Shown piece by piece: positions 1,212 to 20,898 of a DNA stretch of 59,712 bases. Where the stretch lies: the NCBI GenBank assembly GCA_937969505.1, contig CALBWA010000020.1:1-59712 (forward strand), given 5' to 3'. The DNA is from an uncultured Erythrobacter sp. Its GTDB lineage: Bacteria; Pseudomonadota; Alphaproteobacteria; Sphingomonadales; Sphingomonadaceae. Position 1 is the stretch's first letter. Every line of letters starts with the position of its first letter. The notes below the pieces were generated by a model, which did not search any database, had not been told where the DNA came from, and saw only the letters and a program-made list of their open reading frames with translations. The position numbers and the translations under genes were made by a program.

Positions 1212-2216
1212 CTAGTGACCGGCAACCCGAACCATGCGCTTTCCGCGATTCTCGCCATTCAGCAGCCCGATGAGCGCCTTGGGAGCGTTTTCTAGTCCGT
1301 CGACGATGTCCTCAACGACCCTTAGCTTTCCTGCTTCAATCCAAGACCTTAGCTCTTTTTCGGCTGCTGCCTCCTGCTCCGGGAAATCCAAGGCAATGAA
1401 GCCTTCCATCCGCAAGCGCTTGACGACAAGCAGACCCGGCAAATTTCGAGGACCAGTTGCGCTATCGGTATCGTACTGAGAAATGGCTCCGCAGCATACA
1501 ATGCGACCGTACAGATTCATCTGAAAAAGGACCGTTTCGAGCGTCTGGCCACCGACATTATCGAAGTAAATATCGATCCCGTTTGGGCACGCGGCCTTCA
1601 AGTCCTTGAACAGATTTCCTGCTTTATAATCGATGGCGGCATCAAAGCCGAGCTCCTCGACCAGCCAGGAGCATTTCTCAGCCCCACCTGCGATTCCAAC
1701 GACCCGACATCCTTTGAGCTTGCCGATTTGACCGACGAGACTGCCGACGGACCCGGCAGCGGCGGAAATTACTAAGGTCTCATTCGCCATTGGTCTGCCG
1801 ACATTGAGCAAACCAAAATATGCTGTCTTCCCAGCTATCCCGAGAACGGAAACCCGATGACTCAAAGGCGCCACATCGGGCACGATTTTTACTTTGCCTG
1901 ACTCCGCTAAGAAGTAGTCGGACCAAAAGCCCTCAGTCTCAACCACACCTCCAACCGGCAGAGATGCATCATTTGATTCCACCACCCTCCCAAGGGCAAA
2001 GGTTGGCATTACGTCACCGCCTACAACTGCGTCTCGATAGCTGGGGCCTTGCATCCAGGCTCGGTTTGCTGCGTCGAGCGACATGTAGAGCGTCTTGACC
2101 AAAACCTCGTCTTCACCCGGTTCGGGCATTGGTGCCGACTGCATCCGAAAATCAGTCTCTTTCAAAGCTCCGCTTGGCACCCTCTCAAGTGTGATTTGAC
2201 GATTTTTCGCACCCAC
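1212..2216 (-). CDS. NADP-dependent medium-chain reductase (CurA/LTB4DH type)
   Basis: This 334-residue enzyme is a zinc-independent medium-chain dehydrogenase/reductase. The N-terminal catalytic domain (about 1-125) contains the family segment YMSLDAANRAWM. The Rossmann domain has AAAGSVGSLVG at 152-162, the nucleotide-binding loop typical of leukotriene B4 12-hydroxydehydrogenase, CurA and YncB. The family reduces the C=C bond of alpha,beta-unsaturated ketones with NADPH. It is the last gene of the long minus-strand operon, 28 bp after the Nramp-related gene. With the Rieske oxygenase and acyl-CoA synthetase upstream, it would suit reduction of an enone intermediate, but the substrate is unknown. 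Confidence 0.88.
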   Translation of the reverse strand: MGAKNRQITLERVPSGALKETDFRMQSAPMPEPGEDEVLVKTLYMSLDAANRAWMQGPSYRDAVVGGDVMPTFALGRVVESNDASLPVGGVVETEGFWSDYFLAESGKVKIVPDVAPLSHRVSVLGIAGKTAYFGLLNVGRPMANETLVISAAAGSVGSLVGQIGKLKGCRVVGIAGGAEKCSWLVEELGFDAAIDYKAGNLFKDLKAACPNGIDIYFDNVGGQTLETVLFQMNLYGRIVCCGAISQYDTDSATGPRNLPGLLVVKRLRMEGFIALDFPEQEAAAEKELRSWIEAGKLRVVEDIVDGLENAPKALIGLLNGENRGKRMVRVAGH

Positions 2217-2244
2217 GATTTTGGCCTCCTACCGAACCGAACAG

Positions 2245-3492
2245 TCAACTTGCTTTCAAAACAAAGAACATCACCGACAACGCAGTCATCACGCCAATTC
2301 CGCTCAGGCTCAGAAACCTCATGCCCGCGCTTGGCCTGTCCTCGTCGGCCATCTGGCAGCGCGTTACGACAAGGTGATTGAGCAGCGCAGTCCCGGGCGT
2401 CAACACGAAGAAAATGGACGTAACCAGATCGATGAAAGTCGTGAAGCTCTCCAACAAGAAAGCGAGCACCACAAAACTTAAAACAGCCGACAGGACCACA
2501 AAGAATACATAGTTGGTCCGGGTCGCTGTTCCGCCGATATTCCCGCGAAACTCCTGATAGAGCGCTCCATATCCCCGTGCCACCCCATCAAATGAAGCGG
2601 TCATGGTTGTCGCCATCACGCACAAAGCCGCGATGCCGGCAAAGAACGCGGGCACAGGACCCAGCGTTTCGGCATACAGGCCGATGATCTGCGATGCGAT
2701 CTCCGCTGCACCGCTTTCTGGTGTGATCTGGGCCGCATGCATGACACCTGCGCCCATGATGCAAAAGCAGACCGCGAGAAAACTTGTAAGCCCATAGGCA
2801 GCGAGAAATCCCTTACGCGTGGCGTCTATGGATAACCGTTCATCGGATGCGAGCTCTTCTTGAGATTTGAGCGTCCACAGCGACACATCGACCGACTGAC
2901 CGATAGAGGTCGGCATAAAGCCTGCCAAAGCAATTACAAACAGCAGCGCCATAGGGTCCACCGACCATTCGAAACTGGCTGCACTCGACCATTCCACTTT
3001 TGGCAGAGCGATTGCCGCAGCCGCAATGGTCGCCAGAGTCAGGAAAGCGATCAAGACCTTACTGAGGCGCTCCAGCCAGCTGTATCCGCCGATCAGCAAG
3101 AGAGCGACGGTTGCTCCAAGCACTAAGAGGACCAATGCCGCCAGAGGCAGATCAGTTCCGGTTATCGCAGCAAGGATCGCTGCAGTCGTCGCGCTGACAG
3201 CTGCCCCTCCAATCGGGGCAATTAGCAGGGCAACAACTGCATAAACCGGGATTAGCCAGGATGCGAGCTCGCGATAGCCACCGATCAGTGTCTTGCCTGT
3301 TGAATGGGCGTAATCCACACCAAATCGGAACGCAGGATATTTCAAGATATTGATCAGGATGATCACAACGACCAGCGCGAGCCCATACATCGCACCGGCA
3401 CGCGTCGATTGCACGAGGTGCGAGACACCAATGGCAGAGCCTGCAAAGATCAATCCGGGGCCAGCAGCCCGCTGCAATTCCCGAAGATTCAT
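2245..3492 (-). CDS. Nramp-related membrane transporter with altered metal site
   Basis: This protein of about 415 residues is hydrophobic with 10-11 membrane segments and the overall layout of the Nramp/SLC11 family. The start at 3492 (MNLRELQRAAGPGL) overlaps the preceding gene by 4 nt; an upstream extension reads as non-family sequence and is excluded. Canonical Nramp proteins have DPGN in segment 1 and an MPH motif in segment 6. Here the equivalents read AIGVSH and FMPTSI, so the Asp, Asn and His are missing. It probably does not carry Mn or Fe by the usual mechanism. The position inside a catabolic-looking operon suggests import of a substrate or another cation, which is inference. Confidence 0.75.
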   Translation of the reverse strand: MNLRELQRAAGPGLIFAGSAIGVSHLVQSTRAGAMYGLALVVVIILINILKYPAFRFGVDYAHSTGKTLIGGYRELASWLIPVYAVVALLIAPIGGAAVSATTAAILAAITGTDLPLAALVLLVLGATVALLLIGGYSWLERLSKVLIAFLTLATIAAAAIALPKVEWSSAASFEWSVDPMALLFVIALAGFMPTSIGQSVDVSLWTLKSQEELASDERLSIDATRKGFLAAYGLTSFLAVCFCIMGAGVMHAAQITPESGAAEIASQIIGLYAETLGPVPAFFAGIAALCVMATTMTASFDGVARGYGALYQEFRGNIGGTATRTNYVFFVVLSAVLSFVVLAFLLESFTTFIDLVTSIFFVLTPGTALLNHLVVTRCQMADEDRPSAGMRFLSLSGIGVMTALSVMFFVLKAS

Positions 3493-4040
3493 TGGCCGGT
3501 GTTCACCCCAGCGCTTTTCGTTGGCGCAAGTGAGTTGAGCGCCTCGATCCAGTCGTCCTTGGTCACCACCCGGCTGATGGGCGTAGAAGCCAAGATTGAG
3601 TCCAGATGGGCTGCATACGCAGGGTGCATAGTCTGACCGAACATCGCCCACCATGCTCGGCCACCCGGTGATCCCATCACTTGCACGTAAAGCCTATCCA
3701 AAGCCTCGAACTGCGCTTTGGCCGCAGCAGAATTGTCTTTGATCAGAAAGCTCGCTTGTCCTCCTTCAACAGCGATGAAAATCATGAGCCTGAAGCGCAC
3801 GAGTTCTGCTTCATCCAGCTGAGCAGGGTCGCGCATGCCGCGATCATAGAGGTCAACCAGTTCCTTGTCGGAAACCAGCAAGCGGCGAAATCCGTCGAAC
3901 CGCTCACCCATGGCTTGCAAAGTCGCAAGCTCACTTGCTCGGCCCGCTTGCCGTGATTGAATGCCGACGAAGACCAGCGAAGCAACAATAGCAAAGGCGG
4001 CTACGGTCTGTCCGATGAAATAGATCGCTTCGAGGGTCAT
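3489..4040 (-). CDS. MTLE-family membrane-anchored protein, paralogue A
   Basis: This 183-residue protein begins MTLEAIYFIGQTVA, followed by one hydrophobic helix (about 6-27) and a soluble helical domain of about 150 residues. A PGGRAWW motif lies near residue 125. Three more genes in the same operon share this architecture and the pattern MTLE-x-[IF]-Y-x-[IL]-[GS]-Q-x-V-A. The start has a good GGGAGAGG ribosome site. It overlaps the Nramp-related gene by 4 nt, which suggests coupled translation and perhaps contact with that transporter. I recognise the N-terminal pattern from hypothetical proteins of marine proteobacteria but know no function. Confidence 0.85.
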   Translation of the reverse strand: MTLEAIYFIGQTVAAFAIVASLVFVGIQSRQAGRASELATLQAMGERFDGFRRLLVSDKELVDLYDRGMRDPAQLDEAELVRFRLMIFIAVEGGQASFLIKDNSAAAKAQFEALDRLYVQVMGSPGGRAWWAMFGQTMHPAYAAHLDSILASTPISRVVTKDDWIEALNSLAPTKSAGVNTGQ

Positions 4041-4052
4041 TCTGCCTCTCCC

Positions 4053-4622
4053 TCAGCTCGTCGCCACAGCCAGCCAAATTGTCATAGCAATGCGGTGTAT
4101 GATCAAAAAACCCCAGCCTGCCCAATGCCATTTCAAGTCTTTCACAAGGATCAATGCGATGAGCGTCGCGGTTATTGGCAAGGTGTTGAACAGCAATATC
4201 GGCCCCGTCGCCACCAACTCTGGCGTGTAGTAGATAAGTGACAGGGCGTAAGACACCGGCGGCACCAGCATAATGCCAATAATCAGCAGGCGATTGGCCA
4301 CATAATAATCTTCGATAGAGCCCCATCGGTCCTTGTGCTCAGGATAGAGCAAGCGGCTGACCATGACATATGGCATGGCTATCAAACAAAGATTGATAAT
4401 CAGCGCCGTTCCGAAAGACGACCAGTCAAAACTCACTCCGGCTACGGAAGCGAACATGTTGATAACGGCGATAGCGATATAGAAATTGATCGCCCAAGGT
4501 ACGAACCTGATTGGCAGATCATGCCGAGAGCGCAACGCATCAGCGAGATTGTTCGCCACATTTGCCAAAATCAAACCACACAACAGCGCAACGAAACTGA
4601 CGGCGAGTTCGATATCAGTCAT
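4053..4622 (-). CDS. Polytopic membrane protein of unknown function
   Basis: This 189-residue protein has six likely membrane helices (about 3-24, 41-62, 70-90, 110-131, 140-160 and 168-187). The loops are short and there is no recognisable enzyme motif. A basic loop at 30-34 and an acidic, aromatic loop at 94-108 are the only polar stretches of note. It overlaps MTLE paralogue B by 4 nt and ends 12 bp before paralogue A, so it is embedded in the array. I do not recognise a family; a scaffold or channel for the anchored proteins is only a guess. Confidence 0.8.
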   Translation of the reverse strand: MTDIELAVSFVALLCGLILANVANNLADALRSRHDLPIRFVPWAINFYIAIAVINMFASVAGVSFDWSSFGTALIINLCLIAMPYVMVSRLLYPEHKDRWGSIEDYYVANRLLIIGIMLVPPVSYALSLIYYTPELVATGPILLFNTLPITATLIALILVKDLKWHWAGWGFLIIHRIAMTIWLAVATS

Positions 4623-5188
4623 GCGCTTTCTCCCTGCTTGGCGGCCTGCACGGCTTCATCGGCGGCAGGAAGCTCTTTGGCGTCGGGTGCCCAAAACGGA
4701 TAGATATCCCATATCTTCGGACCGTCCTCGGTTGAACTTTGCGCCTCATCAAGCACGGCGCGGATCTTGCTGTCGTAGACAAGTCGAATGGTCTGCCAAT
4801 GCTGGCGGCCTCCTGGAGTGTTGAGGTAGGCAACGGCGACCCCAAGAGCACTTTGATAGATTTCTTGATCGATCAGCTCATCTTCTCTCAGGTGGTGCGC
4901 CTGCTGGGCCAGGTTGATACTGCGATGAACCCAATAGCCGAACTTCACTTGGGCTTGATAAGGCGCGCCGTCGAAATCCAGAATGCACGCTCGAATGGCG
5001 TCGACCGCATCCGGATTGTTGGCAAGGTAATTGTAGATCGTGTTGAGGTCAGCCAACAATTCGCGCTGCGCATCGGCCCGCGCCAGAGCATGATCCTTGC
5101 GCAGCTGCACCCAAATCGCACCCAGAGAACCAAGGATCGCCACCACCGCTACCGTCTGGCCGATATAGTAGATTTCCTCCAGGGTCAT
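4619..5188 (-). CDS. MTLE-family membrane-anchored protein, paralogue B
   Basis: This 189-residue protein begins MTLEEIYYIGQTVAVVA, with one membrane helix (about 6-28) and a helical soluble domain. The motif PGGRQHWQ near residue 130 matches PGGRAWWA in paralogue A and RAAQRYWQ in C, so the paralogy extends beyond the anchor. The C-terminal 30 residues are acidic and alanine-rich, probably flexible. It overlaps paralogue C upstream and the polytopic gene downstream by 4 nt each. Function unknown. Confidence 0.85.
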   Translation of the reverse strand: MTLEEIYYIGQTVAVVAILGSLGAIWVQLRKDHALARADAQRELLADLNTIYNYLANNPDAVDAIRACILDFDGAPYQAQVKFGYWVHRSINLAQQAHHLREDELIDQEIYQSALGVAVAYLNTPGGRQHWQTIRLVYDSKIRAVLDEAQSSTEDGPKIWDIYPFWAPDAKELPAADEAVQAAKQGESA

Positions 5189-5721
5189 TTGCCGGGTGCC
5201 TCTTCGTTTTCCGCTTCGACGATGGGCTGCGCCAAAGGCCGCGCTTCGGCAAAGCGATCATCCATCATTTCGACAAAATCGGGATCGAAAAAAAATCCGC
5301 GCCTCTCCTGCCAATATCGCTGCGCGGCGCGGTTGCTCAGAAAACCGGCCAGCATGGGAATGTAGGACTGATAAGTTCGATCATCCAACAATCCGCGCTG
5401 ATGCTGGAAGAACATGTTCTGCGCCATGTGAAGCGTGGCGTAAGCAAAGGTCGCAAATTGCGCCTTCTCTTCATCGGTCATGTCTTTCGGGTCGGCATCT
5501 CCCACAAAATAGTGATAGATCTGTGGGTACGCCGCCAAGTCGACCGAGTGTTGTCGATGCTCGCTCGCAATAGCCTGAATAACTTGGCCACGGGCAACCC
5601 GTTCATCTTCTTCGGCCTGTTTGCGCCCCATCTGCAACTGCACACCAACAAAGACGAGCGAGGCCATAATGCCCAAAGCAGCCACGATCTGGCTGATGAA
5701 ATAGAAATCTTCGAGTGTCAT
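5185..5721 (-). CDS. MTLE-family membrane-anchored protein, paralogue C
   Basis: This 178-residue protein begins MTLEDFYFISQIVA, with a single N-terminal membrane helix (about 6-28) followed by a charged helical domain (AEEDERVARGQ and onward). The RAAQRYWQERR segment near residue 132 is the family's conserved C-terminal motif. Its first 33 nt match those of paralogue D at 29 positions, while the rest of the two proteins has diverged. That fits an old tandem duplication with a constrained N terminus. It overlaps its neighbours on both sides by 4 nt. Function unknown. Confidence 0.85.
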   Translation of the reverse strand: MTLEDFYFISQIVAALGIMASLVFVGVQLQMGRKQAEEDERVARGQVIQAIASEHRQHSVDLAAYPQIYHYFVGDADPKDMTDEEKAQFATFAYATLHMAQNMFFQHQRGLLDDRTYQSYIPMLAGFLSNRAAQRYWQERRGFFFDPDFVEMMDDRFAEARPLAQPIVEAENEEAPGK

Positions 5722-6272
5722 GTCCTATCCCCATCTGCGGCAGGTGCATTAGCGCGCGGGGTTGCGTGGGGGCGGTCGAAGTTAGGATCCTCCGTTTTAT
5801 TCACAGCGGACAATCTGGCGATCTCGGTCGTAAGTTCGGACGCATTACCTATAGGAACTACAGAGGTTTTAATCAGGTACTGTATCAGCGGGAGTTGCTG
5901 GAATCTGGCGGCCTGGCGGCCATGCAATTCCCAATCCTCTTTCAAGAGGCTGCCTTCTTGATAGAGGCGGAACTGCGCCAGCCATAATTGCCAATAGGCG
6001 ATATACATCAGCCCTGCTCGGTTAAGCTCGGCTTTGGTGAAATCGTCAGGCGCTTTCGACGGATCGAACATTTTCGCTAGAAACGCAGCTGCTTCTGGAT
6101 CCTGAGATGTTGTCAGGTTTCTTTCGCCCCACATACGATTAACCTCGAAAGCGGAATTCGCGCGCACCGCTTTCGTGTTTTGTCTGATCTGGACGCCGAC
6201 GAACAGCAGCGAGGCGAACAGCAAGGTTGCCGCCACAATCTGGCTAAGAAAATAGAAATCTTCGAGGGTCAT
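5718..6272 (-). CDS. MTLE-family membrane-anchored protein, paralogue D
   Basis: This 184-residue protein begins MTLEDFYFLSQIVA, with one membrane helix (about 6-27) ending GVQIRQN, then a helical domain. A longer reading from 6413 is possible, but its first 47 residues lie inside the preceding gene and lack the family pattern. The start at 6272, which makes an ATGA overlap, is therefore chosen. The C-terminal tail (DRPHATPRANAPAADGDRT) is probably disordered. It is the first of the four paralogues in transcription order. Function unknown. Confidence 0.85.
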   Translation of the reverse strand: MTLEDFYFLSQIVAATLLFASLLFVGVQIRQNTKAVRANSAFEVNRMWGERNLTTSQDPEAAAFLAKMFDPSKAPDDFTKAELNRAGLMYIAYWQLWLAQFRLYQEGSLLKEDWELHGRQAARFQQLPLIQYLIKTSVVPIGNASELTTEIARLSAVNKTEDPNFDRPHATPRANAPAADGDRT

Positions 6273-6724
6273 GCGCTTTTCTCCCGTGCACCCGGGCTTT
6301 CTGTATATGGCCGCTTGCGCATAGCGAAAAAGAAGATAAGCGAGCCGAGATAGGACACCGCATACATCACCGTGGCGAAGGCTGACGCGCGGTGATAGGC
6401 GCGTTCGGCCCATTCTTCGGTCATGGGCAGTTGAAATAGTTCGGCCGTGGCGAGCGTCTCCTGCGCAAGCGCGGCGAGCGCGGCGAGCGCGGCTAGATCG
6501 TGAAGTTTGGTGATCCCGCCAAGCGCCACCCCGTACGAAAACATCGTATAGAGTAGAACCAGGATGACCACCATAAAACGGCTCAGCTGATTGGCGATCA
6601 GGAACCCGGCAACCAAAAAGGCAAAGAGGATAGAGGCGTATCCAAGCAGGATATTTATCGTCATCATCTCAAACTCATTCATTAGATAAATGACTTCATA
6701 AGGAGACATTAGGCTTACTTTCAC
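6269..6724 (-). CDS. Small membrane protein opening the MTLE array
   Basis: This 151-residue protein has three likely membrane helices (about 22-44, 50-71 and 113-135), with an alanine-leucine loop at 78-87 encoded by a 9-bp tandem repeat. The start is a GTG at 6724 behind a weak GAGAAAG site; an ATG at 6709 is an alternative. It lies 30 bp after the acyl-CoA synthetase gene and overlaps paralogue D by 4 nt. No family is recognised. Its position suggests that it belongs to the same membrane assembly as the four anchored proteins. Confidence 0.75.
   Translation of the reverse strand: MKVSLMSPYEVIYLMNEFEMMTINILLGYASILFAFLVAGFLIANQLSRFMVVILVLLYTMFSYGVALGGITKLHDLAALAALAALAQETLATAELFQLPMTEEWAERAYHRASAFATVMYAVSYLGSLIFFFAMRKRPYTESPGAREKSA
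6468..6494. repeat. In-frame 9-bp tandem repeat, three units
   Basis: Units AGCGCGGCG, AGCGCGGCG and AGCGCGGCT follow each other without gaps. They encode Leu-Ala-Ala repeats in the loop of the small membrane protein. Because the unit is a multiple of three, slippage would change loop length without breaking the frame. Confidence 0.8.
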
Positions 6725-6754
6725 TTGTCTTTCTCTGGTTTCCCATTGTGGAAC

Positions 6755-8314
6755 TCAGCTCACTTGCCGATCTTCACCTTCCCAGAAGGGCGCTCTCAAT
6801 TCGCGTTTCAGGACTTTGCCAGCCCCTGAAAGCGGGAATGGCTCTTGGCGCAGCGAGATGCTCCGGGGGCGTTTGTAGTTCGCAATTTGTCCATCGAGGT
6901 GGGACAGAATTCCCTCCAAAGTCGGCTCTGCGCCTTCCGCCGGAATGATGATGGCGTGAACTTCTTCGCCCCATTTTTCCGACGGGATGCCGATCACCGC
7001 GACCGCCGCCACTTCGGGATGGGTAGAGATGCAGCTTTCCACCTCAGCCGAGAAGACGTTCTCACCGCCGGTGACGATCATGTCCTTGATCCGGTCGACG
7101 ATGAAAACATAGCCTTTTTCATCGCGATAAGCGCCATCGCCGGTTTTGACCCAGCCATTAGATAGCGTTGCCTTGGTGGCGTCGGGCATGCCCCAATAGC
7201 CGGTCATTGAACCGGGGGAGCGGGCAACAATTTCACCCACCACTCCACTGGGCAGGTCATTTCCATCTTCATCGCAAATGCGCACTTCGACGCCGGGAGC
7301 AGCTCTCCCCGCAGAGGCGAGAAGGCCATCTTCCATCCCTTTCTTCGAGTGATCCCCCGCTGCTAAAACCGTTATTGTGGGAGCCATTTCGGTCTGGCCA
7401 TATCCCTGCACTAGAGCCACATTGGGGAGCTGCTCCAAGATTTGGCGCAATAGCCCCTCTGGCATTGGCGATGCGCCATAAATCGCGCTTCGAACCGTGC
7501 GAAAGCTGTCTTTGTCAAAGTCTGGGTGGTTGACAATCATATCCCACATCGTGGGGACCAGAACGGTGTGTGTGACCTGATATTCGACCAGCGCGTTCAT
7601 CACAGCCACAGGTTCAAATGCGGGAACAAACACGTGACAAAGCCCATTGGCCGTCGCAGCGCCTGACATGCCTCCATCGGCGAGATGGAACATGGGGGCT
7701 GCGTGCAAATAAGTGTCGTTGGCCCCAAGATCGAAATACCCTGAAACCGCGTTGCTATTGTACCAAATCGCCTCATGCGACAGCATCACACCCTTGGGAA
7801 AGCCGGTCGTCCCACCAGTGTAATAGAGACCAGCCAAGTCCTTGCCTGAACGCCCTGCATCGGGGCACGGTTGGTGCGAAGCGACCAGCTCTTCATATTG
7901 GAGCACGCCATCGGGTGCGTCGTCGTCCAAGTAAATGATGGTCTCAAGGCCTTCGATGTCTCTTTGCAGAGGATCAATCATCGAGGCGAAGGCCTTGTCA
8001 ATGAACAACACCTTCGCTCCTGAATCGTTGAGGGAATAGGCGTGCTCTGCGACCGACCAACGCACGTTCAAAGGAACGACCGCACCGCCTGCCCACCAGA
8101 CAGCCGAGTAATATTCCAGATAGCGATCAGAATTGAGAGCCAGAATGGCAGCTCGCTCTCCGTCTTGAATGCCTAAGTCTTTGAGCGCTGATGCCAGTTT
8201 CGAAACCCGGTCCTCAAACTGTGACCAACTGTGCTCGCGTCCCTCACACTTTGTAGCAATCTGCTTGGGAATGGATCGGGAATTGGATTTCAAAAACTCG
8301 GTCAGACCATACAT
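6755..8314 (-). CDS. Acyl-CoA synthetase (AMP-forming)
   Basis: This 519-residue enzyme belongs to the class I adenylate-forming family. The phosphate loop YYTGGTTGFPKGVMLSH lies at about 164-180. GYGQTEMAPT (A5 motif), the KTGDGAYRDEKGY segment and the hinge region DRIKDMIVTGGENV follow in the usual order, and a C-terminal lysine lies in GKVLKRE. Such enzymes activate a carboxylic acid with ATP and CoA. The length fits the medium/long-chain fatty-acyl or aryl/alkanoate branch; the exact acid cannot be read. It is the third gene of the operon, so the pathway probably makes or imports a carboxylate. Confidence 0.93.
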   Translation of the reverse strand: MYGLTEFLKSNSRSIPKQIATKCEGREHSWSQFEDRVSKLASALKDLGIQDGERAAILALNSDRYLEYYSAVWWAGGAVVPLNVRWSVAEHAYSLNDSGAKVLFIDKAFASMIDPLQRDIEGLETIIYLDDDAPDGVLQYEELVASHQPCPDAGRSGKDLAGLYYTGGTTGFPKGVMLSHEAIWYNSNAVSGYFDLGANDTYLHAAPMFHLADGGMSGAATANGLCHVFVPAFEPVAVMNALVEYQVTHTVLVPTMWDMIVNHPDFDKDSFRTVRSAIYGASPMPEGLLRQILEQLPNVALVQGYGQTEMAPTITVLAAGDHSKKGMEDGLLASAGRAAPGVEVRICDEDGNDLPSGVVGEIVARSPGSMTGYWGMPDATKATLSNGWVKTGDGAYRDEKGYVFIVDRIKDMIVTGGENVFSAEVESCISTHPEVAAVAVIGIPSEKWGEEVHAIIIPAEGAEPTLEGILSHLDGQIANYKRPRSISLRQEPFPLSGAGKVLKRELRAPFWEGEDRQVS

Positions 8315-8379
8315 GGAGCGGTCTCCTTAATCGGAAATGGGTTCGGTTCTCGGGCGGTTCACCGGGCCCTTGCTTCGTT

Positions 8380-9630
8380 CTAATTGAGCTTTTCAAGAGC
8401 GAGGCGACCTAGCGCTTCCCGGTAGCTCGTATGGAAGTGGTGCAAAGGCGCCTCGTTGCGCCCAAAAATCGAGTACTCAAGCAAGCCGGATGCCGCCGCG
8501 CGTTGCTGCTGCTCGCCCATCACGTAGTCTTCGGCTGAAACGGTGCTTGAGAAAGCTTCGACGGTCGTCGCTGGCGCTCGCACGATACCTTGATCGTATC
8601 CTCGGGCGTACAGATCCTCAGCTTCGACGAGCTTGTCACTGCCAGACGCCTTCGCCTTTTCCGTCTCATATTGTTCCAGCGCATGGGGCGAAAAGTATCC
8701 GGTCACCCGTGTGATGGAGCGACTGGGATTATCGGGGTCAGGGTAAATCCGCACGATATTCGCGCCGGTCGACGTGGTGACCAACTGGATATTCGGGAAC
8801 AGGTAATAGAGGACAAAAGCGACCTGCGTGATCGACCATTGATCTTCGGGAAGGTCCCGCAGGTCATCGATCCGGCGATTGGCCGTCACAAACCGGTGGT
8901 GCCGTCCAAATTCCTCGAATGAAAGGTTGTTGCCGTGATAGAGCTGGCCGAGCGTGTCTTTGTGCAGTTTGGGGAAATGATAGGTCTCCCCAAAGGTGTC
9001 ATTGGCGAGCTTCCAGTTGAGCTTCATGTCAATGTCCAGGTCGGCCACCGGAGTGAGTTCGCCATAGTTCCAGCCCGCCATTTCGCTGAGCAATTCGTCG
9101 CCGAGAAGGGAGGCAACATTCAACCCAGCGCCCGGTTGGGGGTGGACGAACAGCATGCCCGCGATTTCTTGAGCTGGCAGTTCGATCAATCCCATGCAGG
9201 GTTTGTCGATTGGGCCGAAATGGTCCTGATCCGGAACGGCCAACAATTCGCCCGAGCTCGCATAGGTCCAACTGTGAAAGGGGCAGGTGAAACGGGCGGA
9301 TTTGCCTTTGGTTTCCTGCGCCACTTTCGCGCCGCGATGACGACACGCGTTCACAAAGGCACGAAACTGGCCATCCTTTGCTCTGGTGGCCAGGACCGGG
9401 GTGCCAAAGTCTTCGGTCGTGAAAAAGCTTCCCTCTTCCGGCAGATCACCGCTTAGCCCGACAAATTGAGGATGCTCACGGAAGAACGTCTGCCATTCGC
9501 GCGCGGCGAGTTCGGAGCAGACATAATCCGATGTCGGCAACCGAAATTGTGCGCCCGCATCCACATTGCGGTTTTCATCTAGCTGCCTCATCAATTCCTT
9601 GATGATTGCAACCTGAGTTTCGTGTTTCAT
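8380..9630 (-). CDS. Rieske non-heme iron oxygenase, alpha subunit
   Basis: This protein of about 416 residues starts at MKHETQ (9630); a 5-residue longer reading is possible. The Rieske [2Fe-2S] ligands are C96 and H98 (CRHRGAK) and C116 and H119 (CPFHSW). The mononuclear iron site shows the motif E-x2-H-x4-H at GETYHFPKLH (H218, H223). The family hydroxylates or demethylates aromatic, terpenoid or quaternary-amine substrates, using electrons from a reductase and ferredoxin. No beta subunit, ferredoxin or reductase gene lies in this window, so electrons must come from elsewhere. It is the second gene of the operon. Confidence 0.92.
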   Translation of the reverse strand: MKHETQVAIIKELMRQLDENRNVDAGAQFRLPTSDYVCSELAAREWQTFFREHPQFVGLSGDLPEEGSFFTTEDFGTPVLATRAKDGQFRAFVNACRHRGAKVAQETKGKSARFTCPFHSWTYASSGELLAVPDQDHFGPIDKPCMGLIELPAQEIAGMLFVHPQPGAGLNVASLLGDELLSEMAGWNYGELTPVADLDIDMKLNWKLANDTFGETYHFPKLHKDTLGQLYHGNNLSFEEFGRHHRFVTANRRIDDLRDLPEDQWSITQVAFVLYYLFPNIQLVTTSTGANIVRIYPDPDNPSRSITRVTGYFSPHALEQYETEKAKASGSDKLVEAEDLYARGYDQGIVRAPATTVEAFSSTVSAEDYVMGEQQQRAAASGLLEYSIFGRNEAPLHHFHTSYREALGRLALEKLN

Positions 9631-9721
9631 GCAGTGTACCCCCAATAATCAATAAGGTGGCGCCCTGGCCTGAATGCGCGCCTCAAGCCGAAACGGAAAT
9701 CCCGTCGGCCTGAAGGCGTCT

Positions 9722-10849
9722 TCAGATGGCGCGTAGGAAATCTGCGACGTTCAACTCACGCAGCATGGCCTCGCCGCGCAGCAACCACACATCTTTCCAA
9801 TCCAATCCAAACCCCGCGCATTCACTCGCCAACAATTCGGTGTCGGTTTGGAACAGCGCCGCTGCATTGATGAGCTGTGACATCATTGTGCCAAGTCGGT
9901 GATCGATCATAAAATCATCATAGCTGTACGTGGCAACGCCATTGGCGGCCAAGGCGGCGAAATAATCCTCAATCAGCCCAGCCTGCGACGCATTGCGATC
10001 TTCCGTTGAAATCCCGAGGTTAAGCAGCCTTGAGACATCGAAGACCCCCGGTCCGGCTATGGGATATTGAAAGTCTATTAGTGCAAATTTTCCCTCTCCC
10101 TGTGTGTTGGGAAAGAACATTTGCTTGCCGTGGAAATCGGCGTGGGAGAGCGTGAAGGGGCGCGTTTGCCAATAGCGGACAACGTCTTCGAGGCGATCTT
10201 GATAGACACTTATGACCTCGACAGTGACTTCGGCTTGAGAGCCGACCGCGCTTTTGATCGCTTCCGTGGCCGCAACACCCGCTGCCGCGAGATTGCGCCA
10301 GCGCTCCCGATCATCAAGCTGTACAACGGCGCTTTCGCGCTTGATCGCATCATCATTCCACCAGCGCGCGTGGATCTTGGTGACTTCGCGCAAGGCCATG
10401 CGCACCTGCTCAAGGGAGATGCCATAGGCTGGCGAGTAGGACGGCGCGAGATGCTCCATCAGGATAACCATATCCTGCGTATGCGGATCGAACTTTGCGT
10501 GGAAGCACCGCGGCATAGGCAGCGTGTCGTCAGCGAACTTTTGGTAGAAGCTCACCTCTTTTTCATAGAGCGCGAAGGTCTGGCACATTTCACGGGTCTG
10601 TGGATCGCGGGCGGCCAATTTCGCGATCATCCGATCAGGCAAGGCGCAGGATGCGCTGTCATAGTCGAGCCAGATTTCGACTACGTCAGCGGTTTGCCCT
10701 GGCTCGCCGAAAGGCTTGGCTTGGGCGCAAAACACCCTATGTCCGCCTAGATGGGGCGCTAGCACCTGATTGAGCCATTGGGCTGTGATGTCGTTCGCCG
10801 TTCGTGGAATCGACGTTTTTTCGCACCTGTCTACGCAGTCGATGTCCAT
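9722..10849 (-). CDS. Phosphotransferase-fold protein (EcKinase/APH-like)
   Basis: This protein of about 375 residues starts at MDIDCVDRC (10849), behind a strong GGAAGGAAG ribosome site; an upstream in-frame ATG at 10963 lacks one. The fold is that of aminoglycoside phosphotransferase and ecdysteroid kinase-like proteins. The catalytic loop reads SHADFHGKQ and the metal loop IDFQYP. In the family the loop is usually HxDxxxxN; here the Asn position is Gln. Relatives phosphorylate steroid or small hydroxylated substrates. It is the first gene of the operon, divergent from the regulator. Whether it is active is not clear from the sequence. Confidence 0.78.
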   Translation of the reverse strand: MDIDCVDRCEKTSIPRTANDITAQWLNQVLAPHLGGHRVFCAQAKPFGEPGQTADVVEIWLDYDSASCALPDRMIAKLAARDPQTREMCQTFALYEKEVSFYQKFADDTLPMPRCFHAKFDPHTQDMVILMEHLAPSYSPAYGISLEQVRMALREVTKIHARWWNDDAIKRESAVVQLDDRERWRNLAAAGVAATEAIKSAVGSQAEVTVEVISVYQDRLEDVVRYWQTRPFTLSHADFHGKQMFFPNTQGEGKFALIDFQYPIAGPGVFDVSRLLNLGISTEDRNASQAGLIEDYFAALAANGVATYSYDDFMIDHRLGTMMSQLINAAALFQTDTELLASECAGFGLDWKDVWLLRGEAMLRELNVADFLRAI

Positions 10850-11022
10850 GTTTTCTTCCTTCCCAAAAAGCAAAACGCCCGACGTTTCTCCGCGAAGTTG
10901 GGTTCGAAGTCCTGTGGACGTTCTTAGGTTTTTCTGAGGGCGGTTTTCCGTAAGGGAAATCAATGTATAAGGGGCACAGACAGCCGGTTCGCACCCGTTT
11001 CTTTTGGTTAGTTTTGAGGTCC
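10850..11022. promoter_or_regulatory. Divergent control region between operon and regulator
   Basis: This 173-bp gap separates the first operon gene (minus) from the TPR regulator (plus). It contains an inverted repeat TTTCC-N5-GGAAA at 10945-10959 and should hold both promoters. No clear -35/-10 pair stands out by eye. Confidence 0.45.
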
Positions 11023-12852
11023 ATGACTCAACTTCGCATCGGCACTTCCCGCGTGAATTTCGCCAGCCTTGTTATTGAAGGCGAAAGCGGTCGCATTTCG
11101 GTTGAGCCCAAAGTACTCGAAGTTCTGAAAGCGCTGATCGATGCGAATGGCGATGTCGTCACCCGCGAAGACCTGATCGACCAAGTGTGGGGCGTGGGCT
11201 TCGGCGGGGATGAACGCTTGTCGCGCGCGATTTCACTCTTGCGCAAAGCCCTGGGCGATACACGCGGCAACCACCAGCATATCGAGACGATTTCGAAACG
11301 CGGCTATCGTTTGATCGCCTCGCTTCACGCTTTGGAAGACAGTTCCGCGTCCGAGCCAGCCTCGCCGCTCTCGATCGCTGTGCTCCCTTTTGTCAATTTG
11401 AGCTCTAACCCGGATCAGGAAGTGCTCGCCGATGGCATGACCGAAGAGCTGCTGAACGCGCTTAACCAAACGGGCAGTCTGGAAGTGACCGGACGGACAT
11501 CCTCATTTGCTTTAAAGGGCCAAAACAAAGACAGCCGCGAGATCGGTCGAAGTCTCAATGTCGCGCATCTTATCGAAGGGTCTTTGCGCTGCGATCAGGG
11601 GAGGCTTCGGGTTACCGCTCAACTGGTTAAGGCCAAGGACGGCTTCCAGCTCTGGTCGGGCGCATTTGATGAAAGTCTGGCCGATATTTTCGAAGTGCAG
11701 GAACGCATTGCGCGTTGTATCCTGACCGAATTGTCATGCTTAATCGATATCGACGTGTCGAAGTCCGTCACTCCTAAATTGACGCGCGATCCGCAAGCCT
11801 ACGCGGCCTTTGTTCAAGGGCGCGAATTGTACCACAAACGTATTGGCCAGCTGACTTTGCCGACAGCGATCAGCCATCTCGAAAAGGCTGTGGAACTTGA
11901 ACCAGAATTCGCCGATGCTTGGGCTGCGCTCGCCATGGCGCATTTTGTTCTTCCCGAATATTCAAAAACGTCGCAATGGCAGGACCATATGGAGGCTAGT
12001 CGAGAAGCCCTTGATAAAGTGGAGCAACTCGACCCCTCAAATTCTCTCGCGAAACTGACAAAAGCCTACATCTTGGAGCATGATCTGCGGTTTGATGAGG
12101 CGGCGTTGACCAGCGAAAAAGCGCTTGAAGAGCATCCCGGCGACTCTGAGACCGAAGTGCACTTTGCCTTCACTCTAATGGCCATGGGACTGCACGAACA
12201 AGCCGAACCGTTGATCCGCAACACGATGCCCCAGAACCCCCTATCACCGATATATCCGGTGCTTTTGTGCGGTGTCAGGCGCGCCTTGGGCGATGTCGAA
12301 GGGGCCCTCGGTCATTACCAGAAAGCATTCAACCTTGGCCACGGACCCTCAGGCATAGCCATCGCTACGTTGAAGATGCAGTCGGAAAAATCCGAGCAAA
12401 GTGTAGCGTTCATAAAGAAGCACTTTGGTGGGCTTGACGCGATGGATCAGTCGACCTTGGGATCGCCGATTACGCGCCATCTGGTGTTTGGTGCCTATTT
12501 CAGAAAGAAGCGCGGCTATCGTTGGATCGTGAAGCAAATGCTGGAAAGCCGGTTGAACAATCCGGCGCGGCAGGCGACGGCGACATCGGTTGCGGGGTTT
12601 CTGCTGGTTGACGAACCCAAGCTATGGATGAAAAATGTTCTTGAAAAGCCGAACCCTTACGTGGCCTATACATTGTCACGGATTTGGGATCCGATAAACG
12701 AATGCGCTCATGTCCGATTGCATGAAGACTTTCCCGCGTTCGCAGCGCGCCTTGGCCTGGTAAGGGCCTGGCAAAGGTATGGCTGGCCCCCTCAGATACA
12801 ACCAAATCCGGGAACCGATGGTTCCGATTTGCAATTCACCGTGATTGGATGA
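11023..12852 (+). CDS. Winged-helix regulator with TolB-like and TPR domains
   Basis: This protein of about 609 residues starts at MTQLRIG (11023), 4 nt after GAGGT. An N-terminal OmpR/CadC-type winged helix (about 10-95) includes LSRAISLLRKALGD and the wing ETISKRGYRL. It is followed by a TolB-like/FlgO domain (about 105-215; SIAVLPFVNLSS...LADGMTEELLNAL) and tetratricopeptide repeats (about 245-470). Such proteins are common in sphingomonads and are thought to sense small ligands or proteins through the repeats. No membrane helix is visible, unlike CadC. It is divergent from the Rieske/MTLE operon and is the obvious candidate regulator. Confidence 0.85.
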   Translation: MTQLRIGTSRVNFASLVIEGESGRISVEPKVLEVLKALIDANGDVVTREDLIDQVWGVGFGGDERLSRAISLLRKALGDTRGNHQHIETISKRGYRLIASLHALEDSSASEPASPLSIAVLPFVNLSSNPDQEVLADGMTEELLNALNQTGSLEVTGRTSSFALKGQNKDSREIGRSLNVAHLIEGSLRCDQGRLRVTAQLVKAKDGFQLWSGAFDESLADIFEVQERIARCILTELSCLIDIDVSKSVTPKLTRDPQAYAAFVQGRELYHKRIGQLTLPTAISHLEKAVELEPEFADAWAALAMAHFVLPEYSKTSQWQDHMEASREALDKVEQLDPSNSLAKLTKAYILEHDLRFDEAALTSEKALEEHPGDSETEVHFAFTLMAMGLHEQAEPLIRNTMPQNPLSPIYPVLLCGVRRALGDVEGALGHYQKAFNLGHGPSGIAIATLKMQSEKSEQSVAFIKKHFGGLDAMDQSTLGSPITRHLVFGAYFRKKRGYRWIVKQMLESRLNNPARQATATSVAGFLLVDEPKLWMKNVLEKPNPYVAYTLSRIWDPINECAHVRLHEDFPAFAARLGLVRAWQRYGWPPQIQPNPGTDGSDLQFTVIG

Positions 12853-13459: not shown

Positions 13460-13765
13460 GTGCGGTTTGCCCTTCAATGCTATGTCGACGAAGACCTTCA
13501 TGCCCTTGTTAAAGCCGCTGCTGATGCAGCGCATATGAGCGTCAGCCAGTGGCTAAAGCTCACCGTCATCGAGGCGCTTGAGCAGCCACAGGACGAGGCG
13601 TTCCGCGATCAGGTTCTGGCCGATTTGCTCTTCACCAAGATCGCGCTCGACGGCTGGCTCCGCACACACAAGGACAAGGAGCTGCGGGACCGCGTGGTGG
13701 TCGCCTACCAACGACGCATTCGTGAATATCGCGAGCGTAAAGCCGCGAAGCGAGAGGGGCGCTGA
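13460..13765 (+). CDS. Probable relaxosome accessory protein
   Basis: This 101-residue protein starts with GTG at 13460. The N terminus (MRFALQCYVDEDLHALVK...MSVSQWLKLTVIEAL) has the strand-helix-helix look of a ribbon-helix-helix DNA-binding domain. The C-terminal half is helical, ending in a strongly basic tail (RRIREYRERKAAKREGR). It is 3 bp upstream of the TrwC-type relaxase and clearly in one operon with it. TrwA/TraY-like proteins bind oriT and assist nicking, which is the likely role here. The exact family is not certain. Confidence 0.65.
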   Translation: MRFALQCYVDEDLHALVKAAADAAHMSVSQWLKLTVIEALEQPQDEAFRDQVLADLLFTKIALDGWLRTHKDKELRDRVVVAYQRRIREYRERKAAKREGR

Positions 13766-13768
13766 GCG

Positions 13769-16708
13769 ATGCTTTCGGTTGCCAATGTGCGCTCGGCTGG
13801 CGGTGCCGCGAACTACTTCGCCAACGACAATTACTACACCAAGGCGGACGCTGATCGGTCCGGCATCTGGGTCGGCAAAGGTGCCGAACGGCTGGGTTTT
13901 TCGGGCACGGTCGACGCCAAGGCGTTCGAGGCAATCCTGCGCGGCGAACTGCCCAATGGCGAACGGATCGGGCGCCAGGGTCAGTATCACCGCGCCGGGA
14001 CCGATCTGACCTTTTCGCTGCCCAAAAGCTGGTCACTGTTGGCGCTCGTCGGCAAGGATCAGCGGATCATTGACGCGTACCGTTCAGCGGTCGTCGAAAC
14101 GCTCCAATGGGCAGAGAAGAACGCCGCGCAATATCGCATCGAGAAGAGCGGCAAAGAACGGCTGCATGCCAGCGACAACCTGACCGTTGCCCTGTTCCAG
14201 CACGATACCAACCGCAACCAGGAGCCGAACCTCCACTTCCACGCGGTCGTCGCCAACATGACGCAGGACAAGGACGATAAGTGGAGGGCGCTGCGCAACG
14301 ACAAGCTGTGGCAGCACAACACGCTGCTCAATGCCATGACAATGGCGCGCTTCCGGATCGAGGTAGAGAAGCTTGGCTACCGGATCGGTGCATTTGGAAA
14401 GCACGGCAATTTCGAGGCCAAGGGCATTGATCGTGACGCAGTGATGGCCTTCTCGACGCGGCGGCAGGAGGTGCTCGAAGCGCGGCGTGGCGGCGGGCTT
14501 GAGGCGGGTGTGGTGGCGACGCTGGCGACCCGGCAGGCCAAGCAAAGCGATGTCGATCGCGGTGCTCTGATGGCCCAATGGGAAGGACAGGCATGGAAGC
14601 ACGGGCTCGACCTTGAAGGGATTGTGCGCGACGCGAAGCTGCGTTCGCATGAGTTAACTGTAGCGGCTGCCAAGCGAGCGAACGATCGCCCCTCGCTGCT
14701 CGAACGGGGCAAGGCGATGATCGCCAGCCTCGCCGAAAGAATGGGCATCAAGGAGGGCGATCCGCTCATCCCCAAGCGGCTCCATATGAAGGGTAGGGAA
14801 GAGATTGCGACGGCCCATGCGGTCGCATCGGCGGTGCGGCATCTATCAGAGCGAGAGGCGGCGTTCACGGCCACGGATCTCGCCAAGGCGTCGCTCGACT
14901 TCGGACTGCCGACAACGATGAGATCGGTCGAAAAGCGCATTGGGCAACTTGCGCAGCAGGGCGCTCTGTTGCGCGGGCGAGGCGCACAGAAAGGGTGGCT
15001 GACCACGTCCGATGCATTGGCACTGGAGACCCGCATGTTGGCCGAGATCGGGAAGGGAAACGGCGCAGTTCGCCCCATCCTCGATGCTGAAACCGCGGGT
15101 CCGTATCTGCAAGCGTCGACGGCTCTCAATTACGGGATGGAACTCAACGCCGGCCAGGAAGCTGCTGGTCGATTGATCCTGTCTTCGAGCAATCGCGTGG
15201 TAGCCGTGCAGGGGGTGGCAGGAGCGGGCAAATCGAGCGTGTTGCGTCCGCTTAATCAACTGTTGGAAGAACATGGCAAGAAGGTCATCGGCCTCGGGGT
15301 TCAGAACACACTGGTGCGCATGTTGGAGAAGGATACAGGCATCCCGTCGATGACGCTGCATCGCTTTCTCGGGCAGAATCGTATGCTGCTGGATGGCTCC
15401 GCTGGCAAAGCCGAGATCGCCGCTGCGTGCGAAGCGTATCGCGACACTGTTCTAGTTCTCGATGAAGCCTCGATGGTCTCCACGCGTGACCAGGATCGGC
15501 TGATCCGCGTCGCCAATCTACTCAAGGTCGATCGCCTCGTGCTGATGGGTGACGAAAAGCAGCTGGGAGCTGTCGAAGCGGGGAAGCCATTTGCTCTGGC
15601 GCAGCGCGCCGGGACCGAAACGGCGCGCATGGATCACAATCTTCGCGCCCGCTCCGATACCCTGAAGAGGGCACAGCAGGCGGCCCAGTCGGGCAAGACC
15701 AGTGATGCGCTCGACCATCTCCAGGATCACATCGTCGAGGTCCAGGAGGACAGCGCAATCGTTGCGGCGGAACGCTGGCTGTCCCTTCCGCCTGCCGAGC
15801 GCGAGCGCACATCGATCTTCGCCGCAGGTCGACGGTTGCGCGCCGAGATAAATGCCGCAATCCAAACCGGGCTCGTCGCCAATGGCGAAGTCGGACCAGC
15901 GAGCGCAAGGCTTACGGTTCTATCCCGTGTGAACGCGACGCGTGAGGAATTGCGCTACGCGCGCAATTACAGGCCGGGCATGGTTCTCGATGTGGCAAGC
16001 CGACAAACGCGGCACGGGCTCGGGCGCGGAAGCCACCAGATCTCCGCCGTCGATACCGAAAAGGGCGTTGTCACATTGCGCGATGAGCGAGGCAGTTTGC
16101 GCCGCCTTGTTCCGTCCAGATTGACTGCGAAAGGCAGCGACCAAACATTGCAGCTGTTCGAGAAGAAGGATCTCGATCTCTATACCGGGGACGCCATCCG
16201 TTGGACGGCCAGCGACCACACACGCGGAATGATCAATGCAGACCAGGCAACCGTGACTGCGATCGACAAGGACGGCGTTTCGGTCAAGAGCTCCAGCGGC
16301 ATGGAGCATAGACTGAAGCCGAACGATCCGATGCTGAAGCGGATCGACCTCGCCTACGCGCTCAACGCCCACATGGCGCAGGGCCTCACAGCAGATAAGG
16401 GCATTGCCGTGCTCGACAGTCGCGAGCGGCGACTGCTCTCGCAGCGCAACTTCCTTGTCACGATCACGCGCCTGCGGGATGAGCTTACGCTGATTGTCGA
16501 CAACCGAGACAAGGTTGGAAGAGGTATCTCGACCAATCTAGGCGAGAAGACTTCGGCAGCAGAAACCACCGAACGGCTTGGGATGGCGGCAGCCAAGGGA
16601 CGGAGCGCGGGCCAGATCCAAGCGGCTAACAAAGAGCAGCTGGTCGAGCGAGAGAAGGCACCAGAGCTCACTAAGGAGCGGATCAAGCCGTTCGAGATTG
16701 GCTTGTAG
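13769..16708 (+). CDS. MOBF-family conjugative relaxase/helicase (TrwC/TraI type)
   Basis: This 979-residue protein has an N-terminal relaxase domain with the catalytic tyrosine pair Y22/Y23 (DNYYTK). The DLTFSLPKSWS segment lies at 79-89, and the metal-binding histidines at H145, H156 and H158 (QHD...LHFHAV). A helicase domain follows, with Walker A GVAGAGKSS near 482-490 and Walker B VLDEASM near 560; later RecD-like motifs end near residue 900. It nicks oriT and unwinds the transferred strand. The length is normal and no break is seen. There are no type IV secretion or coupling-protein genes in the window, so it is an orphan mobilisation gene, possibly part of an integrated mobilisable element. 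Confidence 0.93.
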   Translation: MLSVANVRSAGGAANYFANDNYYTKADADRSGIWVGKGAERLGFSGTVDAKAFEAILRGELPNGERIGRQGQYHRAGTDLTFSLPKSWSLLALVGKDQRIIDAYRSAVVETLQWAEKNAAQYRIEKSGKERLHASDNLTVALFQHDTNRNQEPNLHFHAVVANMTQDKDDKWRALRNDKLWQHNTLLNAMTMARFRIEVEKLGYRIGAFGKHGNFEAKGIDRDAVMAFSTRRQEVLEARRGGGLEAGVVATLATRQAKQSDVDRGALMAQWEGQAWKHGLDLEGIVRDAKLRSHELTVAAAKRANDRPSLLERGKAMIASLAERMGIKEGDPLIPKRLHMKGREEIATAHAVASAVRHLSEREAAFTATDLAKASLDFGLPTTMRSVEKRIGQLAQQGALLRGRGAQKGWLTTSDALALETRMLAEIGKGNGAVRPILDAETAGPYLQASTALNYGMELNAGQEAAGRLILSSSNRVVAVQGVAGAGKSSVLRPLNQLLEEHGKKVIGLGVQNTLVRMLEKDTGIPSMTLHRFLGQNRMLLDGSAGKAEIAAACEAYRDTVLVLDEASMVSTRDQDRLIRVANLLKVDRLVLMGDEKQLGAVEAGKPFALAQRAGTETARMDHNLRARSDTLKRAQQAAQSGKTSDALDHLQDHIVEVQEDSAIVAAERWLSLPPAERERTSIFAAGRRLRAEINAAIQTGLVANGEVGPASARLTVLSRVNATREELRYARNYRPGMVLDVASRQTRHGLGRGSHQISAVDTEKGVVTLRDERGSLRRLVPSRLTAKGSDQTLQLFEKKDLDLYTGDAIRWTASDHTRGMINADQATVTAIDKDGVSVKSSSGMEHRLKPNDPMLKRIDLAYALNAHMAQGLTADKGIAVLDSRERRLLSQRNFLVTITRLRDELTLIVDNRDKVGRGISTNLGEKTSAAETTERLGMAAAKGRSAGQIQAANKEQLVEREKAPELTKERIKPFEIGL

Positions 16709-16931: not shown

Positions 16932-17093
16932 TCACACCTTCAGCCAAGAGCGGATGACCCAAGCGATCACACCTAAAAATGTGACGCTCGCAAGCCATAT
17001 CCCTGCCATCCAAACGAGGCGCTTCCATAATGGAGCCTTAGTCTCAGTATGCGTAGCTTGCTGCGTTATATCTTTGCCGGTCGACCGCGCCAT
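16932..17093 (-). CDS. DUF2474 small subunit of cytochrome bd oxidase
   Basis: This 53-residue protein follows cydB, with its ATG overlapping the cydB stop in TGATG. A polar N terminus (about 20 residues) precedes PLWKRLVWMAGIWLASV and one membrane helix (about 28-48), ending IRSWLKV. DUF2474 proteins are short single-helix proteins found next to cydAB in proteobacteria. They probably play the stabilising part that CydX plays in Escherichia coli. It is easy to miss because of its length; position, start overlap and helix pattern all support a real gene. Confidence 0.85.
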   Translation of the reverse strand: MARSTGKDITQQATHTETKAPLWKRLVWMAGIWLASVTFLGVIAWVIRSWLKV

Positions 17094-19503: not shown

Positions 19504-19537
19504 GGCACTCTATTTTCTAAACAAACCTCGGTATTTA

Positions 19538-19580
19538 GGTGCGCCCGCCTGGGGTGGAGGGGGGAGGAAGCGGGCGCACC
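19538..19580 (-). terminator. GC-rich hairpin after the first peroxiredoxin gene
   Basis: Perfect 11-bp arms, GGTGCGCCCGC at 19538-19548 and GCGGGCGCACC at 19570-19580, flank a 21-nt loop. The hairpin lies between the peroxiredoxin stop and the cydA start. There is no clear T-run after it, so it may also act as a transcript-stabilising or attenuating hairpin ahead of cydA. Confidence 0.55.
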
Positions 19581-19590
19581 CTTGCGACCA

Positions 19591-20220: not shown

Positions 20221-20254
20221 GATCGTTTCCTTTATTTAGTTGTGAATCGGGGGT

Positions 20255-20788: not shown

Positions 20789-20883
20789 AGTCATCTCCTG
20801 TGCTGAAAACGACTTAGGCGGAACCGCGATGATATGCAATTACATTTATTCAGTTACTGCAATCGAGTAATCTGATGTCTAGT

Positions 20884-20898
20884 ATATTCGGCGAATAT
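20884..20898. promoter_or_regulatory. Perfect palindrome upstream of the DUF2202 gene
   Basis: ATATTCG-G-CGAATAT is a perfect 7-bp inverted repeat about 95 bp before the DUF2202 start, in an AT-rich promoter-like stretch. It is a plausible repressor site; the protein is unknown. Confidence 0.45.

Follow-up and report, generated by a model that had tools for sequence, protein, structure and literature searches.

The window (the whole stretch analysed, 59,712 nucleotides from an uncultured Erythrobacter sp.) contains an operon-like run of eleven co-directional open reading frames (ORFs) on the minus strand, from 10849 down to 1212, in which a set of enzymes is joined to an array of membrane proteins. 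Comparison of loci divided this system into two modules. The first consists of a divergent regulator, a kinase-fold protein of the EcKL type, a Rieske oxygenase and a CoA ligase; the second consists of an array of single-anchor membrane proteins, here called MTLE after the residues with which they begin, together with a polytopic protein, an Nramp-like carrier and a CurA-like reductase. The joined modules may import, oxidise and CoA-activate an acid of the quaternary-ammonium (betaine) type, with the MTLE proteins serving as membrane adaptors, a reading to which we give a probability of about 0.38. It builds on the observed gene content, order and modularity of the locus, on conserved motifs and catalytic-site signatures, and on the different conservation of MTLE anchors and heads; confidence in the substrate class (quaternary ammonium) and in the adaptor role is moderate to low. 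A first-pass annotation of the window had described the eleven genes from kinase fold to CurA-like reductase, and upstream of them a divergent regulator with a winged helix and tetratricopeptide repeats (TPRs); the former was borne out by the ORF list and domain searches, the latter by matches to Trans_reg_C and TPR domains.

The joined operon in other genomes

Both modules were found together in three genera, represented by the window and by genomes G262 and G370, the latter being the two of 395 other genomes sampled from the order in which Rieske orthologues were detected (87-91%). A check for conserved neighbourhood, as the first-pass annotation had advised, showed that the order of regulator, EcKL, Rieske, ligase, MTLE genes and Nramp-like gene was kept in both. 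Because the same order occurs in three genera, it goes beyond chance, and the joining of enzymes to a membrane array, as first annotated, is real and recurrent. Searches of open-licence papers turned up no description of such a system.

The composition of the operon varies between these genera. In G262 (locus L020) the array holds two MTLE genes, along with a 40-residue match to smTM (a small membrane protein of the window) at 87.5% and a 26-residue match to MTLE; these short matches are read as remnants, in which case the locus formerly held more of the array. In G370 the ligase is followed by two MTLE genes and by genes for the five-transmembrane (five-TM) protein, a strictosidine-synthase-like protein, a transporter of the MFS type, an FAA-hydrolase, the Nramp-like carrier, an Atg22-like protein and the CurA-like reductase, which is therefore part of the run in two of the three genera. 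Ligase matches at E <= 1e-200 were confined, among 114 genomes of the genus, to the window's own genome. In two genomes (L021, 12201-13310; L135, 13476-14585) the gene with a 4-nt overlap with MTLE4 is strictosidine-synthase/SMP-30-like, and in the window the Nramp-like gene takes this place. Partial versions were also seen. Regulator, EcKL and Rieske genes (Rieske 70% identical) occur in L033, from a metagenome-assembled genome titled Gammaproteobacteria, where no ligase match was present on the short contig; L036 lacks MTLE and has, next to a regulator (31%), a 4-nt overlap between a Rieske gene (59%) and an Nramp-like gene (61%). Gene calls in these loci came from a simple ORF script that prefers ORFs with hits, so small genes may have been missed.

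The regulator, which has no TM segment predicted from hydropathy, has orthologues at 77-79% in L020 and L021, and comparison with these makes the ATG at 11023 its likely true start. The gap between the regulator and EcKL genes contains CTTAGGTTTTTCTTAGG-like repeats common to the window, L020 and L021, and three repeats spaced by 11 bp were present in all four loci that carry both genes (window, L020, L021 and L033). At one mismatch or fewer, this three-repeat motif was absent from the array-only locus L135 and from L036, and matched once elsewhere in 1,424,610 bp of other loci. When a longer pattern was allowed as many as two mismatches, it occurred at one place per whole genome in G000, G262 and G370; in G370 this place comprised two overlapping matches, and a reversed control pattern also produced one hit in that genome. 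We infer that the regulator binds the three-repeat motif. A further conserved element lies 3' of the predicted operator in the window, L020 and L021 (window 10960-10975, TGTATAAG), and may be the -10 element of the regulator gene.

The Rieske oxygenase and the proposed pathway

The Rieske subunit has both its CxH...CxxH cluster domain and its mononuclear-iron domain, and residues C96/H98, C116/H119 and H218/H223 were invariant in five sequences. Its best relative in the Protein Data Bank (PDB) was carnitine monooxygenase CntA. According to passages of PMC7948474 and PMC10952381, the quaternary-ammonium (group V) enzymes are marked by E205, Y/F203 and, in part of the group, a Cys pair, and a passage of PMC7948474 makes the aromatic residue at CntA position 203 a feature of clade Va. 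These positions were compared in 81 sequences, i.e., the window protein and the best 80 of 328 relatives confirmed in a genome scan. E215, aligned to CntA E205, was Glu in 81/81, and F213, aligned to CntA Y203, was Phe in every one of the 81.

Gene neighbourhoods pointed in the same direction within one clade, gammaproteobacterial by most record titles, where the Rieske gene stands beside genes for a CurA-like reductase (six loci), a BCCT transporter (five), an MTLE-like protein (five, one of them split) and a PurU-like protein (seen in two and called from formyl transferase and ACT domains); Pfam searches in this clade were run on L062. The split case is in L045 (721-1350), where the MTLE-like gene between the CurA-like and Rieske genes is divided into two ORFs. 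Alignment of MTLE and MTLE-like profiles with hhalign, made with no negative control, gave 79% probability (E 1.6e-5, 136 columns), falling to 61% with fewer rows, and the model of the MTLE-like protein, at a modest pLDDT of 69, had a helix order similar to the MTLE4 model. In the Rieske tree the clade with BCCT and MTLE-like genes was apart from the window's clade, and in many of the intervening loci, some with short flanks, no MTLE relative was found. Given this separation, the association of Rieske and MTLE may have arisen twice, or perhaps once with many losses.

The proposal of the first-pass annotation, that an imported acid is oxidised and CoA-activated, is still plausible, and the Glu and Phe signatures and BCCT neighbours now lean towards a quaternary-ammonium substrate. 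One operon-bearing strain, EhC05, came from an Emiliania huxleyi culture according to the abstract of PMC4945805, so algal betaines are a natural candidate. Several observations weigh against such a substrate. The margin of CntA was small (73.3 bits, vs 72.9 and 70.3 for other oxygenases); at the Cys-pair position there was T/F in 79/81 and V/F in 2/81 sequences, and no Cys pair; the BCCT and MTLE-like neighbours were confined to one clade, at 5/80 loci; and the tree covers relatives of the window protein, without group I-V references. The first-pass annotation had noticed neither a ferredoxin nor a reductase to serve the Rieske enzyme, and domain searches likewise found none among the eleven genes. 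A search of the window's own assembly (90% complete) for PF00970 reductases, other reductase kinds not being searched, gave a single match, an ORF that resembles PaaE in an apparent paaDE locus.

Alternatively, the compound degraded could be an aromatic, terpenoid or steroid acid, with Glu and Phe as traits of the family that say nothing about the substrate. This would suit the broad fatty/aromatic acid type of the CoA ligase, the EcKL fold, the FAA-hydrolase and strictosidine-synthase-like genes of the G370 operon and the missing Cys pair; naphthalene-type dioxygenases also scored near CntA, and benzoate and anthranilate dioxygenase models ranked after GbcA. We nevertheless consider it somewhat improbable, although a substantial alternative, given two group V signatures in all 81 sequences, and the BCCT neighbours, albeit at five loci of one gammaproteobacterial clade, with PurU-like genes in two.

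The carrier has ten predicted TM segments and reached 49 bits against the NCBIfam Nramp model (cut-off 50). The metal motifs of Nramp, as given in a passage of PMC6398981, are DPGN in TM1 and MPH in TM6; in the carrier GVSH replaces the former and MPT, at 193, the latter, and MPH was present in none of the 15 carrier relatives listed. Metal transport by this protein is therefore unlikely. The CurA-like protein combines ADH_N_2 and ADH_zinc_N domains, and matched 4b7c over its full length as well as structures of PTGR1/LTB4DH.

For the quaternary-ammonium pathway, the following scheme is proposed. The regulator would sense the substrate in the cytosol and act at the three repeats, and the carrier, lacking the metal motifs, would move a substrate that is organic. 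An unlinked reductase would supply the Rieske enzyme, which would hydroxylate or dealkylate this substrate, EcKL would phosphorylate a hydroxyl, the ligase would produce the CoA ester, and the CurA-like enzyme would reduce an enone or alkenal intermediate. The conserved anchor would hold each MTLE protein with its N-terminus out and C-terminus in (N-out/C-in) and make contact with the carrier or with polytopic partners; the helical heads, which diverge, would hold different cytosolic enzymes or other partners.

The MTLE proteins and the separable array

Hydropathy predicted one TM segment in each of the four MTLE proteins. The stretch N-terminal to it lacks K/R and contains one or two acidic residues, and the 15 residues after it contain two to four K/R; by the positive-inside rule this distribution suggests an N-out/C-in topology. 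An AlphaFold model of MTLE4 (pLDDT 91.8, pTM 0.72) shows a long helix running from the anchor into a helical head. Profile searches of the small membrane proteins, as earlier advised, returned no Pfam family above cut-off for any of them. The MTLE family as a whole has no Pfam family either; six of 43 members had matches at E <= 0.1, each to a different family, the best at 0.0012. All six small proteins that the first-pass annotation had counted in the array are predicted membrane proteins, and only four, MTLE1 to MTLE4, are recognisable as paralogues. The two polytopic ones (smTM and the five-TM protein) are 22% identical in a forced alignment, and none of the 40 relatives of the five-TM protein has a precomputed Pfam domain.

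Identity within arrays was compared between the anchor (first 36 residues) and the head (residues 37-165). In the window, anchors were 53% and heads 22% identical (6 pairs). The corresponding values were 85 and 23 in L020 (1 pair), 44 and 18 in L128 (1 pair), 48 and 24 in L135 (28 pairs) and 40 and 28 in L136 (3 pairs), those of L135 and L136 being lowered by two ORFs not trimmed to the MTLE start. Anchor gene conversion was considered and set aside. Codon identity at conserved residues within genomes was in excess for the anchor in two of three pairs only (25/34 vs 22/48 and 17/27 vs 7/26; third pair 13/29 vs 27/64), and of five pairs between genomes one had an anchor excess of similar size (18/28 vs 13/31) and another a head excess (14/31 vs 88/122). 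With codon comparisons so mixed, exchange of the anchor segment is only suggested.

Profile scans, counting the window's own genome, matched MTLE in 11/114 genomes of the genus (E <= 1e-10), 12/397 of the family and 19/367 of the class (both E <= 1e-8). Array size ranged from two to eight copies. The largest, in G683, comprises eight MTLE genes with genes for the five-TM protein (94%), MTLE4 (83%), a strictosidine-synthase-like protein, the Nramp-like carrier (81%) and the CurA-like reductase (92%), and its 12-nt spacing before MTLE4 is identical to that of the window. Regulator, kinase, Rieske and ligase were unmatched in its 19.9 kb, and no Rieske above 34% was found genome-wide. G691 has three MTLE genes and no other operon gene in 19 kb; G524 has two at the start of a contig, where 15 kb is visible on one side only; and G684 has broken copies. 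Four genomes were found with a carrier at >=79%, and each has MTLE genes upstream of it in the same gene run; of the loci with more distant carriers (44-71%), 16 of 17 matches were fetched, G642 being left out, and none has them. Together with the enzyme-free arrays, this indicates that the array can move as a unit and has its closer tie with the carrier. The first-pass annotation would have been contradicted by an array regularly found without the enzymes; G683 and G691 go part of the way, in that the array is separable and the association, although real, is not obligatory.

The enzyme-free arrays of G683 and G691 count against a joint pathway with MTLE adaptors, as do several other observations. 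Rieske relatives at 72% in G006 and G191 stand alone, and in the 20 kb that surround the operon of G262 no CurA-like gene was seen. The contexts of single MTLE relatives across the class are mostly unrelated: of 20 class-level places fetched, one has the MTLE gene next to a CurA-like gene and two have a tandem or divergent pair there. Weaker matches lie further off, to a Rieske (33%), a CoA ligase (33%) and regulator-like ORFs in three loci. No convincing PDB fold match was obtained for MTLE, and the topology of MTLE2 is weakly predicted, since four acidic and three basic residues follow its TM segment.

The array might be a passenger, a tandem family that expanded and settled in the operon with no part in the pathway, e.g., an immunity-like or stress array. 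In keeping with this, G691 has a bare array (as has G524 over the stretch that its contig covers), copy number varies, the relatives in 18 further genomes among the 367 of the class are mostly single copies, and divergent heads sit on conserved anchors. We hold it to be somewhat improbable, although a substantial alternative, because MTLE genes accompany the close carriers and none of the distant ones, MTLE-like genes lie next to paired Rieske and CurA-like genes in a clade apart from the window's, and MTLE3, the polytopic gene and MTLE4 are kept as orthologues in G683 with their 12-nt spacing; PADLOC, moreover, produced no hit for eight proteins. The MTLE proteins could instead be sensors or small regulators of the transporter rather than enzyme adaptors. 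This appears unlikely, as the predicted topology puts the head in the cytosol, no known output domain is present and each array has several divergent copies. As an extension of the adaptor role, MTLE arrays could be a plug-in scaffold, in which the anchor docks to a carrier or polytopic partner, the divergent heads, spread in part by exchange of anchor segments, each recruit a different cytosolic enzyme, and entire catabolic routes are put together at the membrane and changed by swapping members; here a pathway with a group V-like oxygenase, controlled by a one-site regulator, would have been captured by such a scaffold. This idea is speculative, and we think it improbable.

Layout, surroundings and known systems

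The features of the operon are listed in Table 1. The first-pass annotation had counted six consecutive 4-nt overlaps in the array; the count is five, with four in succession, a 12-nt gap and then the MTLE4/Nramp-like junction. Counting that 12-nt gap, the junctions without overlap are 91, 65, 30, 12 and 28 nt. Scans of the run for internal promoters and terminators gave 6 and 11, vs 5.1 and 10.9 in shuffled sequences; since this is no better than the shuffles, we can only infer that the eleven genes form one transcript. The polytopic gene was also considered as a TPT transporter, an assignment rejected at 19.3 bits vs a cut-off of 30.

Table 1. Genes and predicted operator of the joined system, in window coordinates
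Feature	Position	Strand	Evidence
EcKL/APH kinase-fold protein	9722..10849	-	PF02958 58.9 bits vs cut-off 22; HADFHGKQ and IDFQ motifs
Rieske oxygenase alpha subunit, group V-like catalytic motif	8380..9630	-	PF00355 60.4 bits, PF00848 96.9 bits
Acyl-CoA synthetase / CoA ligase (AMP-binding)	6755..8314	-	PF00501 284.5 bits; NF004837 495 bits vs cut-off 476
smTM, small membrane protein, three predicted TM	6269..6724	-	hydropathy; no Pfam family above cut-off
MTLE1, single-anchor membrane protein	5718..6272	-	hydropathy; relative P0005 at 87%
MTLE2, single-anchor membrane protein	5185..5721	-	hydropathy
MTLE3, single-anchor membrane protein	4619..5188	-	hydropathy; 90% in L135
Polytopic membrane protein, five predicted TM	4053..4622	-	hydropathy; 94% in L135, 51% in L021
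MTLE4, single-anchor membrane protein	3489..4040	-	83% in L135, 74% in L021; AlphaFold model pLDDT 91.8
Divergent Nramp-family carrier	2245..3492	-	PF01566 33.5 bits vs cut-off 29.8; DPGN and MPH motifs absent
CurA/PTGR-like NADP-dependent double-bond reductase	1212..2216	-	PF16884, PF00107; PDB 4b7c 309 bits
Divergent regulator, OmpR-type winged helix and TPRs	10963..12852	+	Trans_reg_C 54.8 bits, TPR_19 45 bits
Predicted operator, three repeats CTGTGG/CTTAGG/CTGAGG spaced 11 bp	10912..10939	.	kept in window, L020, L021, L033

Other genes of the window were identified by eye. A TraA-type relaxase/helicase (13460-16708) and a phage-type integrase (34636-36041) beside tRNA-Ser(GCT) point to an integrated mobile element as the probable carrier of the operon; a search for an att copy of the 3' end of the tRNA-Ser found none, returning that gene and two further tRNA-Ser genes. 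The region 17093-27801 resembles a sulfide-handling cluster, with cytochrome bd oxidase, two peroxiredoxins, a SulP-type permease, a sulfide:quinone-type oxidoreductase and a persulfide-dioxygenase-like gene. Between these sulfur genes and the integrase there is a possible second catabolic cluster (28160-34432: MFS transporter, methyltransferase, TetR-type regulator, TonB receptor, alpha/beta hydrolase). Just downstream of the operon, at 13-992, there is an SdpI-like pair made up of an ArsR-type regulator and, after it, a membrane protein.

The system consists of ordinary enzyme families in an operon that recurs in three genera and has a regulator predicted to act at one site; the array to which it is joined is separable and belongs to a membrane-protein family that has no name. 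If our reading is correct, a single-anchor family without a Pfam entry acquires a context (a carrier, a polytopic partner, defined enzymes and a predicted one-site operator), and a Rieske clade spread, by record titles, over Gammaproteobacteria, Alphaproteobacteria, Myxococcota and others becomes a set of candidate quaternary-ammonium oxidisers.

Each component can be set beside a known family. One of the 43 MTLE-family members matches DUF6082 (PF19560; E 0.0012), which the window proteins do not reach (MTLE2 10.6 bits vs cut-off 26.7, the others below cut-off or unmatched). The carrier resembles Nramp (SLC11) in its ten predicted TM segments and in scoring slightly above the PF01566 cut-off, but differs in lacking DPGN and MPH. 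The CurA-like protein is comparable to CurA, prostaglandin reductase 1 and the alkenal reductases over its full length, and would differ from them in its operon context. CadC/OmpR-type regulators use direct-repeat operators; the window regulator is like them in its Trans_reg_C winged helix and tandem 11-bp-spaced repeats, but it has a TPR part, no TM-anchored sensor and a motif at one place per genome. A further parallel is with CntA/CntB carnitine monooxygenase and the other group V Rieske systems (GbcA, Stc2, OxyBAC), with which the window enzyme shares a Rieske centre and mononuclear iron, the bridging Glu, the aromatic residue at 203 and, in its gammaproteobacterial relatives, BCCT neighbours. 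It differs from these in having neither Cys pair nor linked reductase and in being aligned to CntA by phmmer over residues 24-224 only, and its operon adds a kinase fold, a CoA ligase and the membrane array.

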